From positions 310,001-374,000 of the forward strand of contig NZ_LVYD01000041.1 in assembly GCF_002077945.1 (NCBI RefSeq): a stretch of 64,000 nt of DNA. Direction: 5' to 3'. Every line of letters begins with the position of its first letter. The first letter of the stretch is position 1. This DNA is from Niastella vici (GTDB taxonomy: Bacteria > Bacteroidota > Bacteroidia > Chitinophagales > Chitinophagaceae). The translations under genes and the position numbers were made by a program. The notes beneath the pieces are model-generated. The model searched no databases and was not told where the DNA came from. It saw only the letters and a program-made list of their open reading frames with translations. Below, piece after piece: positions 28,695 to 54,502 of this stretch.

Positions 28695-28784
28695 CAGATT
28701 TTGAGATTTGGGGATTTTGAGATCTCAAATAGTTGTAGCTTCTGAAAAATCTCAAAATCCCTAAATCCCGAAATCGCTAAATTT
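28695..28784. repeat. GATTTTGA-type octad repeat element (solo copy 1)
   Basis: Left arm: GATTTTGA-GATTTGGG-GATTTTGA with exact 8-bp period. Right arm: AAAATCTC-AAAATCCC-TAAATCCC-GAAATCGC, its reverse complement pattern. It starts about 12 bases after the EamA stop. It lacks a gene. Confidence 0.8.
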
Positions 28785-34085: not shown

Positions 34086-35906
34086 ATGAAGAGATTTTCA
34101 AGGATTTTCTTTTACCTGCGCGATCAGAAGGGAAAAATTGCAGCTTACCTGGTATTCAATTTGTTATCCATTGTTTTCTCCCTGGTTTCGCTGGCCATGC
34201 TGGGCCCCTTTTTTAAATTGTTGTTTACACAGGATGAAACCCCGCTTACAGTAAGACCGCCTTTTGTATTTACCTCCGAAGGGGTAATGACCGAATTAAA
34301 GTACTGGCTTTCGTATATAATTATCCATTACGGTTATCCGAGAGCCCTGATAGCCATATGTGTTACGATCATATTATCAATTCTATTTAAAAATCTATTC
34401 TTATACCTGTCGTTCAGAACACTTATTCCCCTGCGTAACAGTATCATGAGACGTTTCAGGGAAGACCTGTACGATAAAATACTGTTGCTGCCGGTAAGCT
34501 ATTTTACCGAACAACGCAAAGGAGATATTATCTCCCGCATGAGCAACGACATGAACGAAATTGAGTGGAGCATCATTGGCGCCCTGGAAGGATTGATCAA
34601 AGACCCGCTGAACATCATAATAGTACTGGCTTCCCTGATTTTTTTAAGTCCACTGTTGTCACTGATAATGCTGGTATTGTTACCCGTAGCCGGATTTATT
34701 CTTGGCCGGGTAAGCCGCACCTTGAAAAAGGAATCGGGCCAGGCACAGGAACAACAGGGTTTATTGCTGAGCATCCTCGATGAAACCCTGGGTGGTTTGC
34801 GGGTGGTAAAGGCCTTTAATGCCGAAAAGTTGATGAGGACCCGGTTTATTGGTACCAATAACCTGCTGAATCATATCCGCATTAAAATGGCATTCAAGCG
34901 TGACCTGGCCTCGCCCATGTCGGAGTTTTTAGGCGTAATGGTCTTTTGCTGTATCCTGTGGATCGGTGGTCAAATGGTATTTAGCGGAAAGGGCCTGGCG
35001 CCTGAAGCCTTTATCACATATCTTGCTTTGTTTTACCAGATCATTCAACCGGCCAAATCTCTTTCCCAGGCATTTTATAACATGCGCCGCGGCGCCGCCG
35101 CTATTGAAAGGGTTGAAGAAGTGATAGATGCCCCGTTAACCGTTTCGGAAGTGGCTAACCCAAGAACACTGAATACCTTCGAAAACAAGATCGAATTAAA
35201 GAATGTATCGTTTAAATACAATGATGTAACCATTCTCGATAATATCAACCTCACCATTGAAAAGGGTAAAACCATCGCCCTGGTAGGCTCCTCCGGCGCC
35301 GGTAAAAGTACCCTGGCCGATCTGGTGCCCCGCTTTCACGATGTAAGCAGCGGCGAATTACTGATCGACGGCATAAACATCAAGGAATATTCCCTGCTTT
35401 CTCTGCGCGATCAAATGGGTATTGTTACCCAGGAACCCATCCTGTTCAATGATAGCATTGCCGCCAATATTGCACTGGGCAACCCCGTTGCCACCATCGA
35501 TGAAATTGAATCGGCGGCCCGCGTGGCCAATGCGCATAATTTCATCATGCAAAAAGAAGAGAATTATCAAACCAATATAGGCGACCGTGGCAGCAAGCTC
35601 AGCGGGGGCGAACGCCAGCGCCTGACCATTGCCCGGGCTGTTTTAAAGAACCCGCCCATCCTTATTCTCGACGAAGCCACTTCTTCTCTTGATACAGAAA
35701 GCGAACGCCTGGTTCAGGACGCCATCAATAAAATGATGGAGAACCGCACCAGTATCGTTATTGCGCACCGGCTCAGCACCATACGCCATGCCGATGAGAT
35801 CATCGTTTTGCAGAAAGGAAAGATCGTTGAACGTGGTACACACGACACACTGATTGAACAGAACGGGTTTTACCGGAAGCTGGTTGAAATGCAGGAGGTG
35901 AAATAG
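34086..35906 (+). CDS. MsbA-like ABC transporter (fused permease and ATPase)
   Basis: A half-transporter of 606 residues: six helices (about 1-320) followed by an ATPase domain. Walker A is ALVGSSGAGKST, signature LSGGERQR, Walker B ILILDEATSSLD and the His switch IAHRLSTI. It probably flips lipid A or another lipid. It is divergent from rbfA. A GTTACC-type element follows directly after the stop. Confidence 0.92.
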   Translation: MKRFSRIFFYLRDQKGKIAAYLVFNLLSIVFSLVSLAMLGPFFKLLFTQDETPLTVRPPFVFTSEGVMTELKYWLSYIIIHYGYPRALIAICVTIILSILFKNLFLYLSFRTLIPLRNSIMRRFREDLYDKILLLPVSYFTEQRKGDIISRMSNDMNEIEWSIIGALEGLIKDPLNIIIVLASLIFLSPLLSLIMLVLLPVAGFILGRVSRTLKKESGQAQEQQGLLLSILDETLGGLRVVKAFNAEKLMRTRFIGTNNLLNHIRIKMAFKRDLASPMSEFLGVMVFCCILWIGGQMVFSGKGLAPEAFITYLALFYQIIQPAKSLSQAFYNMRRGAAAIERVEEVIDAPLTVSEVANPRTLNTFENKIELKNVSFKYNDVTILDNINLTIEKGKTIALVGSSGAGKSTLADLVPRFHDVSSGELLIDGINIKEYSLLSLRDQMGIVTQEPILFNDSIAANIALGNPVATIDEIESAARVANAHNFIMQKEENYQTNIGDRGSKLSGGERQRLTIARAVLKNPPILILDEATSSLDTESERLVQDAINKMMENRTSIVIAHRLSTIRHADEIIVLQKGKIVERGTHDTLIEQNGFYRKLVEMQEVK

Positions 35907-35960
35907 TTACCGGTTACCGGTTTCCGGGCCCTGGCGACCGGTAACTGGTAACCGGTAACG
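35906..35960. repeat. GTTACC-type palindromic repeat element (copy 4)
   Basis: A compact copy: AGTTACC-GGTTACC-GGTTTCC, a short core, then CGGTAAC-TGGTAAC-CGGTAAC. The left arm starts at the stop codon of the ABC transporter gene. Confidence 0.8.
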
Positions 35961-36079: not shown

Positions 36080-38191
36080 ATGAAAAGGGCTGCTGCACCC
36101 GGCATGTTACTACCATGCCTGTTACTTATTGGTATTACCTCCCATGCTCAAAAACAAAACTTCACCTTTGAACAGATCTTCAAAAACGGTGAACCGGGCG
36201 TTGTTCAACAACTGCCGATGGTCAAAGGCTGGGTCGACGATACCCATTATTTACTGACAAAAAAAGAAGCCGACGGAAAAATGGCCACCTATATGGTGGA
36301 TGTAAAGACCGGCACTACCTTACCCCACCCCGATGCGGGCATGTTTACACCGCCCCAGGTAGACGTTCCCGGCGGCATTAATACCACTTATTCGCCCGAT
36401 AGAAAATGGGCTGCCTATACCAAAAAGGACAATAACCTGTATGTAAGGGATTTATCAACCGGCCAGGAAACCCAGCTTACCAAAGACGGTTCTTCCACTA
36501 TTTTGAACGGCTATGCCTCCTGGGTATATTATGAGGAGATCCTGGGCCGGGCCAGCAAGTATAAAGCCTTTTGGTGGAGCCCCGACAGCAAGCACCTCTG
36601 CTTTATGCGTTTCGACGATTCGCAGGTGCCCGTGTTCCCTATTTATGTAGCCGATGGACAGCACGGTTATCTTGAGAACCAGCATTATCCCAAAGCCGGA
36701 GACAAGAACCCCGAAGTAAAGATCGGCATCGTATCGGTTAACCCCGGCGAAACCATTTGGGCCGATTTCAATGCACAGGATGACCAGTATTTCGGTGAGC
36801 CGGCCTGGTCGCCCGATGGACAATTATGGGTGCAATGGATGAACCGCAAACAAAACAACCTGAAGTTCTATAATATCGATCTTGCCAATGGCAGCAAAAA
36901 AGAAGTGTATGATGAAAAGCAGGAAACCTGGATCGATCTCGATGAAAGCGAACGCATTACCTTTCTGTCGGCTGGTAAAGGCTGCATCATTAAAAGCGAT
37001 CGCGATGGCTGGGAGAACCTTTATTACTATGATAACAATGGTCAGTTAAAGAACGCCATTACCGCTGGTAATTTTTGGGGAACCACCATTGTAAAAGTGG
37101 ATGAGAAAGCAGGCACTATCTATTTCAGGGCCCGCAAGGAAAGCTCTACACGCTTTGACCTGTATAAAGCCGGTTTGAACGGAAAGGGATTGACCCGACT
37201 GAGCTTTGGCGATTTCAGCCATGATTTCTGCAGCATTTCGCCCAACGGCAGTTATTTTATCACGGCCTATTCCAATTTAAATACCCCGCCTGTGATGTCG
37301 CTGGTTGATGCCAAAGGAAAGATCATTCGCGAGGTGGCCAACAGCAAAGGAAGTAATTTCAACAACTATAACCTGCCTAAGAACGAACTGGTGCGGGTTC
37401 CCTCTGCCGATGGTTTATTTGAACTGCCGGTGACGATCACCTACCCCATCAATTTTGATCCCACTAAAAAATACCCGGTACTCATCAGCATTTACGGGGG
37501 ACCCAATGCCGGCACCGTATACGACCGGTGGAAGGCGGCTGTATCGCCCACTCAATGGTTTGCGCAGGAAGGCATGATACAGGTGGCTTTTGACAACCGC
37601 AGCAGCGGGCATTTCGGAAAAAAGGGATTGAACTATATCTTCCGCCAGCTGGGTAAATACGAAATTGAAGATTTCATGACCTGCGGCCGCTGGCTTAAAC
37701 GGCAGCCCTGGGTCGACAGCAATAAATTGTGTATCACCGGCGGCAGCTTTGGGGGGTATATGACCTGTATGGCCCTTACTTATGGCGCCGAGGTGTTCCC
37801 CTATGGCATAGCCAATTCATCGGTCACCGACTGGCAGTTTTATGATACCCATTATACCGAAAGGTTCATGAACACCCCACAGGATAACCCCGAGGGCTAT
37901 AAAAACACGTCGGTTTTAACCTATGCCGATAAATACAAGGGACTGTTGCGTATAGTACACGGCACTTCTGACGACAATGTACATATGCAGAACAGCCTGG
38001 TGCTCATCAACAAGCTCGAAGACCTGAAAAAGCATTTTGAGCTAATGGTATATCCGGGCGAGCGGCACGGGATAATGGGGTTGAAGGGCGTGCATAATCG
38101 CTATGAGGCGTATAAGTTCTATTACCAGTACCTGCTCGAAAAACCAATGCCTGCCGCATTCTGGGCGCCGGAATCGCAGAAAGGATTTTGA
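36080..38191 (+). CDS. DPP4-like S9 family peptidase
   Basis: A 703-residue secreted serine peptidase with a signal peptide (about residues 1-24). A beta-propeller covers roughly residues 30-470 and an alpha/beta-hydrolase domain the rest. The catalytic triad is Ser556 in GGSFGGYM, Asp631 or 632 in GTSDDNVH, and His663 in GERHGI. The propeller has the glutamate motif YASWVYYEEI typical of DPP4, which binds the peptide N-terminus, so it likely removes dipeptides after proline. The last codons and stop overlap the GATTTTGA repeat. Confidence 0.94.
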   Translation: MKRAAAPGMLLPCLLLIGITSHAQKQNFTFEQIFKNGEPGVVQQLPMVKGWVDDTHYLLTKKEADGKMATYMVDVKTGTTLPHPDAGMFTPPQVDVPGGINTTYSPDRKWAAYTKKDNNLYVRDLSTGQETQLTKDGSSTILNGYASWVYYEEILGRASKYKAFWWSPDSKHLCFMRFDDSQVPVFPIYVADGQHGYLENQHYPKAGDKNPEVKIGIVSVNPGETIWADFNAQDDQYFGEPAWSPDGQLWVQWMNRKQNNLKFYNIDLANGSKKEVYDEKQETWIDLDESERITFLSAGKGCIIKSDRDGWENLYYYDNNGQLKNAITAGNFWGTTIVKVDEKAGTIYFRARKESSTRFDLYKAGLNGKGLTRLSFGDFSHDFCSISPNGSYFITAYSNLNTPPVMSLVDAKGKIIREVANSKGSNFNNYNLPKNELVRVPSADGLFELPVTITYPINFDPTKKYPVLISIYGGPNAGTVYDRWKAAVSPTQWFAQEGMIQVAFDNRSSGHFGKKGLNYIFRQLGKYEIEDFMTCGRWLKRQPWVDSNKLCITGGSFGGYMTCMALTYGAEVFPYGIANSSVTDWQFYDTHYTERFMNTPQDNPEGYKNTSVLTYADKYKGLLRIVHGTSDDNVHMQNSLVLINKLEDLKKHFELMVYPGERHGIMGLKGVHNRYEAYKFYYQYLLEKPMPAAFWAPESQKGF

Positions 38192-38278
38192 GATTGCTGA
38201 TTTTGAGATTTAGAGATTTTGTGATTTCCCCGGAATTGAATTCTGAAAAATCCCGAAATCTCTAAATCTCAAAATTTC
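38184..38278. repeat. GATTTTGA-type octad repeat element (solo copy 2)
   Basis: Left arm GATTTTGA-GATTTAGA-GATTTTGT-GATTTCCC (8-bp period) preceded by another GATTTTGA that contains the stop codon of the S9 peptidase. Right arm AAATCCCG-AAATCTCT-AAATCTCA-AAATTTC. Confidence 0.8.
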
Positions 38279-45766: not shown

Positions 45767-45842
45767 CGATTTTGAGATTTCGAGATTTTTAGATTTCGGA
45801 ATTTACTTAAATCTCAAAATCAACAAATCCCAAAATCAGCAA
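45766..45842. repeat. GATTTTGA-type octad repeat element (solo copy 3)
   Basis: Left arm GATTTTGA-GATTTCGA-GATTTTTA-GATTTCGG (8-bp period). Right arm AAATCTCA-AAATCAAC-AAATCCCA-AAATCAGC. It lies between the convergent ends of hemN and hemJ and fills that gap. Confidence 0.8.
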
Positions 45843-49152: not shown

Positions 49153-49155
49153 TTT

Positions 49156-49275
49156 GGTGAATGGTGAATGGTGAATGGTGAATGGTGAATAAGCCTCGCG
49201 AATCAGGAGGCTTGCAGGCAAACAGAAACCTCAAAAATTCGGATTCCATTGACCATTGCCCATTGACCATTCACG
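49156..49275. repeat. TGAATGG-type heptad repeat element (copy 1)
   Basis: Left arm TGAATGG repeated four times with exact 7-bp period (about 49158-49188). Right arm CCATTGA-CCATTGC-CCATTGA-CCATTCA, the reverse complement type. It fills the hemA-hemC gap, and its right end contributes a TTG to the hemC promoter. Confidence 0.8.
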
Positions 49276-49290
49276 AATACATTAGCTTTG
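49263..49290 (+). promoter_or_regulatory. Predicted hemC promoter
   Basis: TTG (49263..49265), 17 bases, then TAGCTTTG (49283..49290): both elements of the Bacteroidetes consensus at accepted spacing. The TTG lies inside the right arm of the repeat element. The ATG is 24 bases downstream of the -7 box. Confidence 0.6.
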
Positions 49291-50987: not shown

Positions 50988-52028
50988 ATGCTGCAAAATG
51001 ACCTGTTATTAAGAACACTGAAAGGAGAACAAGTAGAACGCCCCCCCGTATGGATGATGCGCCAGGCCGGCCGGTATTTACCTGAATACATGGCCTTACG
51101 CGAGAAATATGGCTTCTTCGAACGGTGCCAGACACCCGAACTGGCCTGCGAAATAACCATTCAACCCGTCGACATCATTGGCGTAGATGCAGCCATCCTG
51201 TTTTCCGACATCCTGGTGGTTCCCCAGGCCATGGGCATGGAAGTACAACTGATAGAAAGCAAAGGGCCGCTGTTACCCGACCCCATTAAAAATATAAACG
51301 ACCTCAACCGCATTCGCGTAGCCGACGTGAACGAAACGCTTCACTACGTTTTTGACGCTATTAAGCTCATCAAACAGGAACTGAACGGCCGCGTTCCCCT
51401 CATTGGTTTTGCCGGCGCCCCCTGGACGCTGCTGTGCTATATGGTACAGGGCAAGGGCTCCAAAACATTCGATGAAGCTAAAATATTCTGTTATACCCAA
51501 CCCGAAACAGCGCATCGCCTGTTGCAAATGATCACCGATACCACCATCGCTTATTTGAAAGGACAGGTAAAAGCCGGTGTGGATGTAATTCAGATCTTCG
51601 ATAGCTGGGGCGGTTTGCTGAGCCCCGATGATTTCGAGAATTTTTCTTTACAATATATTCGCCAGATCGTTGCCGCATTAAAAGAGGAAGTAGCCACGAT
51701 CATTTTTGCCAAAGGCGCCTGGCATTCGCTGCAATCTATGGCAGCTACCGGCGCACATGGCCTGGGAATTGACTGGTGCATTACCCCTGCTATGGCCCGC
51801 CAACTGGCAGGCCCCAATGTAACGCTGCAGGGCAATTTTGACCCCGCCAAATTGCTGGCGCCTATTCCCGTTATTCAAAAAGAAGTGAAGAAGATGCTGC
51901 ATGATTTCGGCGGTCATCGTCATATCGCCAACCTGGGCCATGGTATTTTACCCAATGTACCGGTTGATCATGCAAGGGCATTTGTTGATGCGGTGAAAGA
52001 ATACAAACAACAAGGCATCGAGGCATAA
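50988..52028 (+). CDS. hemE: Uroporphyrinogen decarboxylase
   Basis: Removes four carboxyls from uroporphyrinogen III to give coproporphyrinogen III. The 346-residue protein has the signature [16 protein letters not shown] (about residue 22), then [29 protein letters not shown] and the C-terminal GHGILPNVP. Length is normal. HemF starts 1 base after its stop. Confidence 0.96.
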
Positions 52029-52029
52029 T

Positions 52030-52956
52030 ATGATCATTGACCACATGAACATCAAAGAAAACTGGATAAACTATATATACTCCCTGCAGGACCGTATTTG
52101 TGCAGCGCTTGAAAAAGAAGATGGCAGGGCAACCTTCAGGGAAGACCAGTGGCAACGCCCCGAAGGCGGCGGTGGTAAAACCCGCGTTATTGCCAATGGC
52201 AATGTATTTGAAAAAGGCGGCGTTAACACCTCGGTAGTATTTGGCGAAGTAACCGACCCCATGCGCAACCAGTTAAAGATAAATGGGAAAAGCTGGTTTG
52301 CCTGTGGCCTGTCGCTGGTATTGCATCCTGTGAATCCGTTCGTACCCACCGTGCATTGTAATTATAGAATGTTTGAAGTGTATGGCGATGAAGGCACGGC
52401 TGCCGACCGCTGGTTTGGCGGGGGTACCGATCTTACGCCGTATTATTTGTTCGAAGAAGATGCCCGGCATTTTCATCAAACGTATAAGAATGCCTGCGCT
52501 GCCTTCGATGCCGGCTTTTACCCCACATTCAAAAAAGAATGCGACAACTATTTTGTGAACTGGCATCGCAATAAAGAACGCCGGGGTATTGGCGGTATCT
52601 TTTATGATCACCAGCGCCCTTCGGCAGAAAAAGATGTACAGTTCTGGTTCAATTTTGCACAATCCTGTGGCGATTCGTTTTTAACCGCTTACCTGCCCAT
52701 CGTACAAAAAAGAAAAGAATTACCTTATACCGAACAACACAAACACTGGCAGGAGATCCGCCGCGGCCGGTATGTTGAATTCAACCTGGTTCATGACCGG
52801 GGCACTTTGTTTGGTTTGAAAACAAATGGAAGAACGGAAAGTATTTTAATGAGCCTGCCGCCCACCGTACGTTTTGAATATAATTATCAACCCCAGGCAG
52901 GCAGCGAGGAAGACAAACTGTTACAGGCCTGTTTGAACCCGGTTGACTGGGTGTAA
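52030..52956 (+). CDS. hemF: Coproporphyrinogen III oxidase, aerobic
   Basis: Oxidatively decarboxylates coproporphyrinogen III using O2. The 308-residue protein has GGGKTRVIANGNVFEKGGVN in part, NYRMFEVYG, WFGGGTDLTPYYLFEEDARHFH, quoted in part, and GRYVEFNLVHDRGTLFGLKT. ATG at 52045 (MNIKENW) is an alternative start. With hemN in the same cluster the cell can do this step with or without oxygen. The S23 element begins at the stop codon. Confidence 0.96.
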   Translation: MIIDHMNIKENWINYIYSLQDRICAALEKEDGRATFREDQWQRPEGGGGKTRVIANGNVFEKGGVNTSVVFGEVTDPMRNQLKINGKSWFACGLSLVLHPVNPFVPTVHCNYRMFEVYGDEGTAADRWFGGGTDLTPYYLFEEDARHFHQTYKNACAAFDAGFYPTFKKECDNYFVNWHRNKERRGIGGIFYDHQRPSAEKDVQFWFNFAQSCGDSFLTAYLPIVQKRKELPYTEQHKHWQEIRRGRYVEFNLVHDRGTLFGLKTNGRTESILMSLPPTVRFEYNYQPQAGSEEDKLLQACLNPVDWV

Positions 52957-53009
52957 GGGGATTTTGAGATTTGGGGATTTAGGGATTTTTAGATTTACTG
53001 ATCGGAATG

Positions 53010-53038
53010 CGATTGATCGTTGCAAAACAAATCAATCG
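53010..53038. promoter_or_regulatory. Inverted repeat before the S23 gene
   Basis: CGATTGAT (53010..53017) and ATCAATCG (53031..53038), an 8-bp perfect inverted repeat with a 13-base spacer, ending 2 bases before the ATG. It could be an operator or hairpin over the start codon. Confidence 0.5.
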
Positions 53039-53040
53039 AT

Positions 53041-53421
53041 ATGAACAAGTTTGATTTACAAAAACGAACAAAACAATTTCATGTTGATGTAATAAAGCTG
53101 TGCGGCCGATTTCCCAAAAATGCGGCTGGTTTTGAAACAGCCAGACAATTAATAAGAGCCGCAGGGTCTGTTGGATCGAATTACAGAGCTGGTTGCCGTG
53201 CAAAGTCAAATGCAGATTTCATTTATAAGATAGAAGTTGTATTAGAAGAAGCTGACGAATCACTCTATTGGCTGCAGTTATCGCAAGAAGCAGGTTTGGT
53301 GCAGGGAGAAGATTTGGAAACGTTGATAAAAGAGGCCAATGAACTAGTAAGCATTTTTAATGCAAGTGATAAAACAGCCCAAAAAAACAGAGAGGGCAGC
53401 TTAACTAAAAAAAAGGAATAA
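53041..53421 (+). CDS. Four-helix-bundle protein (S23/IVP family)
   Basis: A 126-residue all-alpha protein. Conserved family core: RQLIRAAGSVGSNYRAGCRAK then SNADFIYKIEVVLEEADESLYWL in part. S23 proteins were first seen in intervening sequences of 23S rRNA; the Avd protein of diversity-generating retroelements has the same fold. The molecular role is unknown. The tail ends in basic KKKE. It lies between hemF and hemB inside repeat arms, so it is probably a recent arrival rather than part of heme synthesis. Confidence 0.9.
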   Translation: MNKFDLQKRTKQFHVDVIKLCGRFPKNAAGFETARQLIRAAGSVGSNYRAGCRAKSNADFIYKIEVVLEEADESLYWLQLSQEAGLVQGEDLETLIKEANELVSIFNASDKTAQKNREGSLTKKKE

Positions 53422-53511
53422 CAAAAAATCACTGACTTTGAGATCTATTATTTTGGGGAACTCAGCCCAATCAAAAAAATCTCAAAATCAAAAAATCTCA
53501 AAATCAGAAAT

Positions 53512-54486
53512 ATGTTTCTTCAACGTCGCAACCGCATATTACGTCAGTCGCCGGCAATCAGAAGCATGGTGGCTGAAACCATTTTAACACCGAATGATTT
53601 TATAGTTCCGCTGTTCATCAATGAAGGCGAGCATTATAAGGAAGAAATAGCAAGCATGCCCGGCTATTATCGCATGAGCCTAGATAACACGGTAAAAGAA
53701 GTAAAAGAATTGTGGAGCATGGGCCTCAAAAGCGTGTTGCTGTTCATAAAATGTAAAGACGAACTGAAAGACAATAAAGGTACCGAAGCATTAAACCCCA
53801 AAGGCCTGATGCAACGCAGCATCAGGGCCATTAAAGAGGCTTGTCCGGATATGCTGGTGATGACCGATATTGCCCTTGACCCATTCTCTTCTTTTGGTCA
53901 TGACGGTATTGTAGAAGGCTCAGCCATCGTGAACGATGCTACGGTAGAAGTGCTGGCGCAAATGAGTGTAAGCCATGCGCAGGCCGGGGCCGATTTTGTG
54001 GCTCCCAGCGACATGATGGATGGCCGCATTGCCGCCATTCGCGAAGCACTGGAAGAGAACGGGCTTAATAATACCGGCATCATGAGCTACAGTGCCAAAT
54101 ATGCTTCCTGCTTTTACGGTCCCTTCCGCGATGCGCTCGATAGCGCCCCTGGGTTTGGGGATAAGAAAACCTACCAAATGGATTACAGCAACCGCCTTGA
54201 AGCCGTTAAGGAAACGTTGATGGATGTAGAGGAAGGCGCCGATATTGTGATGGTAAAACCGGCCCTGGCTTACCTGGATATTATCCGCGAAGTGAAAAAT
54301 GCGGTATCTGTACCCGTTAGCGCCTATAACATCAGCGGGGAATATGCCATGATAAAAGCTGCCGCCAGAATGGGCTGGATAGATGAGAACAAAGCCATTC
54401 TGGAAACGCTGACAGCGATCAAAAGAGCCGGTGCAGATCTCATTGCCACTTACTTTGCAAAGGACGCCGTTAAACTTATTAGCTAA
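53512..54486 (+). CDS. hemB: Delta-aminolevulinic acid dehydratase (porphobilinogen synthase)
   Basis: Joins two 5-aminolevulinates into porphobilinogen. The 324-residue protein shows [16 protein letters not shown], then [16 protein letters not shown]. The usual zinc-binding cysteines (as in DVCLCxYTxHGHCG) are replaced, which fits the metal-site type that uses Mg or K rather than Zn. The active-site lysines lie in [17 protein letters not shown] and [13 protein letters not shown]. It starts 2 bases after the S23 element's right arm. Confidence 0.95.
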
Positions 54487-54502
54487 TACCAGAACTCACC
54501 AT

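Follow-up and report, generated by a model that had tools for sequence, protein, structure and literature searches.

The gap between hemF and hemB of Niastella vici is filled by a single gene of the S23 family, set between two arrays of short tandem octads. What kind of unit this is, and how its protein and its repeats are related, is the question addressed here. The locus lies in a stretch of 64,000 nucleotides of contig NZ_LVYD01000041.1 (the window), whose first letter is position 1 in the coordinates below.

The hemF-hemB unit and its S23 protein

With hemF ending at 52956 and hemB starting at 53512, the gap 52957-53511 consists of an array, the S23 gene and an inverted array. The parts are as follows.

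52957..52996, plus strand: left octad array, GATTTNNN unit, about 4.5 copies
53010..53038, plus strand: short inverted repeat before the S23 start codon, CGATTGAT ... ATCAATCG
53041..53421, plus strand: S23 gene (PF05635, TIGR02436, four-helix bundle), 126 aa, from profiles and a model with pLDDT 94
53434..53446, plus strand: degenerate octad match in the right flank, 2 mismatches
53475..53505, minus strand: right octad array, inverted relative to the left array

The initial annotation described octad arrays of opposite orientation around a lone S23 gene, which we confirmed at 52957-52996 and 53475-53505, and arms that are exact reverse complements over 13 bases, which indeed match at 52960-52972 and 53477-53489. 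The arm score of 18.5 was equalled or beaten in 3 of 5000 dinucleotide shuffles. S23 is the sole product encoded between the arms; its start was taken as the ATG at 53041, and the ORF listing opens the frame at TTG 53020. The right flank alone can fold as a small hairpin, in which the octad match at 53434-53446 pairs with the right array. Nothing in Rfam reached the gathering threshold in 52000-54500. As the S23 gene and the heme genes share a strand, they are probably transcribed together. A stem like that at 53010-53038 is visible by eye in other intact hem S23 copies, and an inverted repeat directly 5' of the S23 start was also seen by eye at three other loci (L041, L043 and L001), its sequence varying by subfamily. 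This repeat is possibly an operator or a translation-control stem.

The protein tests place the gene in the S23 family. The window protein scored 68.9 bits against PF05635 (cut-off 33.8, E 5.1e-19) and 89.8 bits against TIGR02436, 'four helix bundle protein' (cut-off 24), and the predicted structure revealed four helices. The top Foldseek matches of this model were 2rld and 2gsc (E 1e-5 to 2e-3), which the sequence profile likewise retrieves. Both have five chains, and five bundles are given for Xcc0516 by the title of Lin et al. 2006 and by PMC4990558. By homology, the S23 protein may form a ring of five four-helix bundles. The next Foldseek matches, a ribonucleoprotein of diversity-generating retroelements (8ub7) and Avd (4dwl), gave TM values of 0.7-0.8 but weak E values of 0.03-0.1, and no transposase was among the 50 matches listed. 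Profile searches of the protein returned S23-type families, with Avd weakly for relatives only, and matched no nuclease family. Two relatives scored 23.5 and 22 bits with the Avd profile NF033474, far short of its cut-off of 80, and the window protein was not listed.

PF05635 matches are found in 75 of the 99 sampled genomes of the window's phylum, with a maximum of 16 per genome, and a section of a paper from 2024 still terms the domain functionally uncharacterised (PMC11270868). For the hem S23 gene, dN/dS is 0.06 in one and 0.08 in the other of the only two computable species pairs (dS 2.8 and 2.0, respectively), pairs with G001 being left out and dS being saturated for G000-G002.

Inverted arrays and S23 subfamilies

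Three sets of S23 loci were compared. The Niastella set had 73 S23 matches in 10 genomes, from which 70 loci were taken (the other three were short, two of them inside taken loci); removal of L082 and L083, which overlap L078 and L062, left 68. The phylum set consists of 30 of the listed matches, or 29 once L128, which has a stop, was dropped. The named-genome set holds 80 loci of 543 relatives, with flanks adequate in 77 for the self-match means and in 79 for the null test. Six loci that duplicate Niastella places (L129, L130, L132, L134, L204 and L206) were removed for the 170- and 131-locus figures and are still included in the 77-locus means, the 136-locus trend, the spacer control and the control-ORF and wobble counts.

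Self-matching inverted arrays above the 95% level of a cross-locus null were found at 144 of 170 distinct S23 loci, where about 8 were expected. By set, these were 63/68 in Niastella, 67/73 in the named genomes and 14/29 in the phylum sample, where the other 15 loci fell below the 95% null. At 30 Niastella loci, comparison of each upstream flank with the reverse-complemented downstream flank of its own locus gave a mean score of 21.6, as opposed to 9.5 with the flanks of other loci, and the 77 named-genome loci showed a mean self score of 19.2, the largest permuted mean being 14.2. An arm score of at least 14 was reached by 67 of 77 S23 genes and by 2 of 60 control ORFs of the same loci. Of the 141 loci that have clear arms, 115 show an array period of 7 and 21 a period of 8, and in 91% the coding strand of the upstream array has a positive GC skew. 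A check of other S23 genes for the hem octad, as the initial annotation proposed, thus found inverted arrays but mostly other units. The window genome has two PF05635 matches, and the second (L001) is flanked by inverted heptads of unit GAAGTAA, not by octads. One common octad around all S23 genes was rejected; units vary by subfamily.

Plasmid S23 loci, examined in 16 of 35 records after near-duplicates, short partial matches and Riemerella had been omitted, carry inverted arrays in 11 of 16, mostly cyanobacterial. The plasmid hosts in this survey of array-flanked S23 genes were cyanobacteria, Gemmatirosa and Azospirillum, the positives including Gemmatimonadota and one alphaproteobacterium. 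One viral-contig scan returned no relative. On cyanobacterial plasmids, three S23 genes with inverted arrays (L285, L286 and L291) were observed within CRISPR-Cas operons, in the orders cas6-S23-cas4 (twice) and cas10-S23-cmr3; S23 in cas loci had been noted before, in a passage of PMC3936711.

No constant S23 partner gene was found, the commonest neighbour family lying near 20 of the 80 named-genome loci. Relatives within 2.5 kb of these loci were hemB (20), hemL (15), copper-ATPase-like (13) and recQ (10), where the names are our reading of the sequences against the window's own hem proteins and 7 of the 80 loci are Niastella records. The S23 genes near hemB relatives belong to another subfamily than the window's S23. 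The earlier view of the hem S23 as foreign to heme synthesis stands in that the family has no heme link, and is qualified by the recurrence of that other subfamily beside hemB relatives. A neighbour gene family in common with another locus was found at 67 of the 80 loci, and therefore many were probably inherited at the same site.

Comparison of arrays with proteins revealed that the two vary together. Array similarity correlates with S23 identity with a Mantel r of 0.635 over 131 loci, the largest of 2000 permutations reaching 0.161, and the correlation is seen within each set (Niastella 0.554; named genomes 0.513; phylum sample 0.576, n=12, p 0.001). Over 136 loci, array similarity climbs with protein identity from about 40% up, in the same orientation only, whereas the 26 nt preceding the gene and the sequence beyond the arrays show no such rise until about 60-70% identity. 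Pairs below 60% identity give Spearman coefficients of 0.39 for their arms, 0.00 for the 26-nt spacer and 0.09 for outside DNA. The Niastella S23 proteins form 17 clusters, each with mostly one kind of unit; the exceptions include cluster 10, which has both AGTGGCT and GGCAGAC, and cluster 11 with its variants. Within clusters, 103 of 113 pairs have the same period (maximum of 5000 permutations, 90). Cluster 11, whose subfamily is that of the named-genome set, is, of the 17, the closest in its arms to 63 non-Niastella loci of its own subfamily, with a mean of 7.6 and the next at 6.3. Unit and period (7 or 8) therefore go with the S23 subfamily rather than with the host.

If concerted evolution is neutral, the consensus unit of an array should drift at roughly the rate of single-copy DNA. 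The unit persists while the spacer diverges, which indicates constraint. The spacer control also argues against plain linkage, yet drift of arrays together with a linked gene could yield some correlation. A wobble test of the arms revealed no bias (172 versus 165) and hence gave no indication that an RNA stem is under selection, and that explanation of the arms was rejected.

Gene-less palindromes and the history of the hem unit

The window contains five palindromes of such arrays with no gene inside.

28697..28775, unstranded: gene-less octad palindrome (GATTTNNN unit) between convergent genes
38184..38276, unstranded: gene-less octad palindrome (GATTTNNN unit) between convergent genes, with an 8-base overlap with one gene end
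45768..45837, unstranded: gene-less octad palindrome (GATTTNNN unit) between convergent genes, hemN and hemJ in our reading
35906..35959, unstranded: gene-less palindrome, unit GTTACCG (Niastella S23 cluster 14)
49154..49277, unstranded: gene-less palindrome in the hemA-hemC gap, unit GTGAATG (a Niastella S23 cluster 11 unit)

The octads are thus not private to the hem site, three octad palindromes lying elsewhere in the window. Over the whole genome of the window the octad palindrome pattern has 215 overlapping matches per strand and its reversed control has none. Unit-pattern counts are overlapping matches rather than distinct palindromes; among the matches listed, 50 forward matches correspond to 23 distinct places.

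The abundance of two units depends on the cognate S23 gene. Nine complete genomes were compared, G007 (61% complete) being excluded. Forward octad matches number 215, 141, 151 and 189 where the hem S23 is intact, and 26, 86, 15, 55 and 3 where it is broken or absent. GTTRACNN, counted on both strands, splits the genomes five versus four in the opposite sense, with one inversion of order: 74, 40, 11, 40 and 39 with the cognate S23 present, and 0, 1, 2 and 15 with it absent. The exact p values per Mb are 0.008 for the octad and 0.016 for GTTRACNN, with phylogeny ignored in 9 related genomes. GTTACC shows a weaker trend, the window genome having 6 matches without such an S23 and two genomes with one having 6 and 5; its exact p is 0.036 when the partial G002 copy is omitted, phylogeny again ignored. 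The narrow pattern AAGCTNC has 0-1 gene-less matches per genome despite its S23 being present in five genomes. For two of four Niastella units, palindromes are therefore clearly commoner with an intact S23. The S23 genes of cluster 2 (octad) and cluster 15 (GTTRACNN) show complementary presence, both being intact in none of the 9 complete genomes.

Three octad palindromes have near-identical 22-nt loops in unrelated flanks, and therefore such gene-less palindromes were copied. For the S23-bearing copy there is no such sign of copying. A common loop consensus for octad palindromes proved weak, since it was chosen post hoc and only 7 of 19 loops exceed the 95% shuffle level; truly alike loops are confined to a few groups, and the L020/L021 pair, 1.6 kb apart with overlapping flanks, is not independent. 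At 12 of the 141 clear-arm loci the left array has the motif AATACAG at its inner end (shuffled mean 0.36, maximum 3), and some palindromes that have other units and no gene contain AATACA as well. Randomly drawn 20-kb stretches from 18 genomes contained no array palindrome in 600 kb from genomes with 0-2 S23 genes; in 540 kb from genomes with at least 5, they contained 4 (2 of them Niastella) or 7 (5 Niastella), by thresholds. These stretches thus gave no support, outside Niastella, to the idea that genomes rich in S23 generally have more array palindromes.

All 9 Niastella genomes have a gene-less array palindrome at the same place in the hemA-hemC gap (L276-L284), with a unit that varies by species. 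Both arms thus change jointly while the place stays fixed. In 3 of the 9 genomes, the window's included, this palindrome has a unit for which no S23 of its cluster is resident. In the hemN-hemJ gap of G005 (L269), 8 copies of TATTTGTATTC were observed, each beside an AAGCTGC-type array, as a higher-order tandem repeat.

The hem site itself was compared in the nine Niastella genomes with a hemB match. Four retain an intact S23 core, two a decayed gene and three are empty, so that the comparison of related genomes put forward in the initial annotation gave a mixed picture, in which all six occupied sites keep octad arms around S23. In G001 the core is intact and the open frame extends to 204 aa, with a changed C-terminus. 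The gene is frameshifted in G005 and internally deleted in G006, where the last third remains. The three empty hemF-hemB gaps measure 30-31 bp, and an octad-like trace persists in two. A hemF+hemB tree, unrooted and without an outgroup, with support of 37-63 at three of six nodes, places the empty genomes in two groups, each adjoining a genome with a decayed S23, a pattern consistent with an old insertion and two or more losses. The hem element thus looks like an old resident, kept in some Niastella species and decaying in others; judging by the tree, its function was probably lost independently about twice. Recent insertion at hemF-hemB was disfavoured by the same tree, with its three nodes of low support. 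The picture of a repeat-bounded S23 unit accordingly holds, and extends far beyond this locus, but a mobile unit is not supported in the sense of a recent move into the hem site.

Interpretation and comparison with known systems

Based on the inverted arrays, their covariation with the protein and the gene-less palindromes, we propose that S23 outside rRNA is the protein-coding member of a palindromic repeat family, which binds its own unit and maintains and spreads the palindromes; we regard this as moderately probable. The element would have the order 7-8-nt repeat array, S23 gene, inverted array. S23 would bind its own unit, and a single array would offer several sites in register. Binding would maintain and spread the palindromes; on the gene-less copies S23 would act in trans, as has been proposed for RAYT transposases and REPs. 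Since S23 matches no nuclease family, cutting or copying would be the work of the host or of a separate enzyme. From the sequence comparisons, S23 likely recognises its own repeat family; that it drives the spread of the palindromes is plausible but less sure.

The unit can also be read with nothing mobile involved. S23 could be a host regulator or RNA-processing factor, the arrays sites of self-control, and the palindromes a regulon, serving as terminators, as stability elements or as sites for RNase III. Such a role would agree with the low dN/dS of both computed pairs, with the position of the window's three gene-less octad palindromes between convergent genes and with the hemA-hemC palindrome present in all 9 Niastella genomes, as well as with the cutting of the rRNA-borne S23 stem of Coxiella by RNase III, reported in part of PMC4990558. 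Near-identical palindromes at unrelated places are harder to reconcile with it, as are orthologous sites that lack S23 and any replacement, genomes with as many as 16 S23 matches, and arms without the wobble bias expected of an RNA stem, and we judge this explanation rather unlikely.

The arrays might instead be unstable inverted repeats that tolerate insertions, with S23 an unrelated passenger and the likeness of arrays due to shared descent only. Such passive hitch-hiking agrees with the probable same-site inheritance of many of the named-genome loci and with the turnover of units at fixed sites such as hemA-hemC. It is improbable, as the arms are still alike where the similarity of spacer and outer DNA is gone, the non-Niastella arms of the cluster 11 subfamily are closer to cluster 11 than to the other clusters, and control genes lack arms. 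A conventional mobile element (a MITE or IS remnant), in which S23 is the cargo of an unrelated transposase, would explain terminal inverted repeats and dispersed gene-less copies; its ends would hardly be short tandem arrays of locus-specific units that follow the S23 protein, S23 alone is encoded between the arms, and we give this origin very little credence. Binding and maintenance of the repeats by S23 is thus the reading that we carry forward. The covarying product and flanking repeat are a first lead to the function of a widespread gene. If true, this reading would account for a class of bacterial repeats without a known maker and would add a second, unrelated arrangement of the REP/RAYT type. 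A search of listings of open-licence PubMed Central papers found none on the link between S23 and array repeats.

Several known systems resemble the hem unit in part. A section of PMC4990558 describes the 23S rRNA intervening sequence (IVS) of Coxiella as an S23p ORF with a 28-bp stem; 2-3 tandem copies of the heptamer GACAGAT immediately precede the ORF and vary between strains. Similar to this IVS, the hem unit has an S23-family ORF within the loop of terminal inverted repeats. Unlike it, the unit lies between protein genes (hemF and hemB) and not in an rRNA gene; its arms consist of arrays, their repeat goes with the S23 subfamily, and copies lacking the gene are dispersed. The likeness to Avd of diversity-generating retroelements lies in the predicted fold (4dwl and 8ub7, at the weak E values of 0.03-0.1), and Avd-S23 homology was already noted in a passage of PMC10053308. 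A general survey of window ORFs of at least 150 aa noticed no reverse transcriptase or template/variable repeat.

Short heptad-type arrays like those of S23 are described in portions of PMC4692102 and PMC4679880 for Xanthomonas, Nostoc and Beggiatoaceae. The Xanthomonas (GGGAATC) heptads form mostly intergenic arrays, often as inverted pairs (70 and 75 cases), and Nostoc has heptads as well; the TAACTGA repeats of Beggiatoaceae and some Bacteroidetes are likewise heptad arrays, for the most part intergenic. S23 does not occur in the main text of either paper. A wider extension would be a pan-bacterial S23 code, in which each subfamily recognises a 7- or 8-nt unit, builds or keeps its own arrays and spreads palindromes without a transposase of its own, the cyanobacterial and Xanthomonas heptads and the 23S IVS being outposts; we offer this only tentatively.

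The RAYT/REP system, as part of PMC2817692 presents it, has a gene flanked by inverted repeats, covariation of protein and repeat, and a presence of the gene that goes with the abundance of the cognate palindrome. Similar to these elements (TnpAREP, BIMEs), S23 is flanked by inverted repeats that covary with the protein. A link to abundance is seen in Niastella for two units, weakly for a third and not for a fourth, with phylogeny ignored. S23 differs from RAYT in being an all-helical four-helix bundle and not a tyrosine transposase related to IS200/IS605, and its repeats differ from REPs in being 7-8-nt tandem arrays. The hem unit therefore has the layout of an rRNA IVS without being one, and behaves most like RAYT/REP with a different protein.
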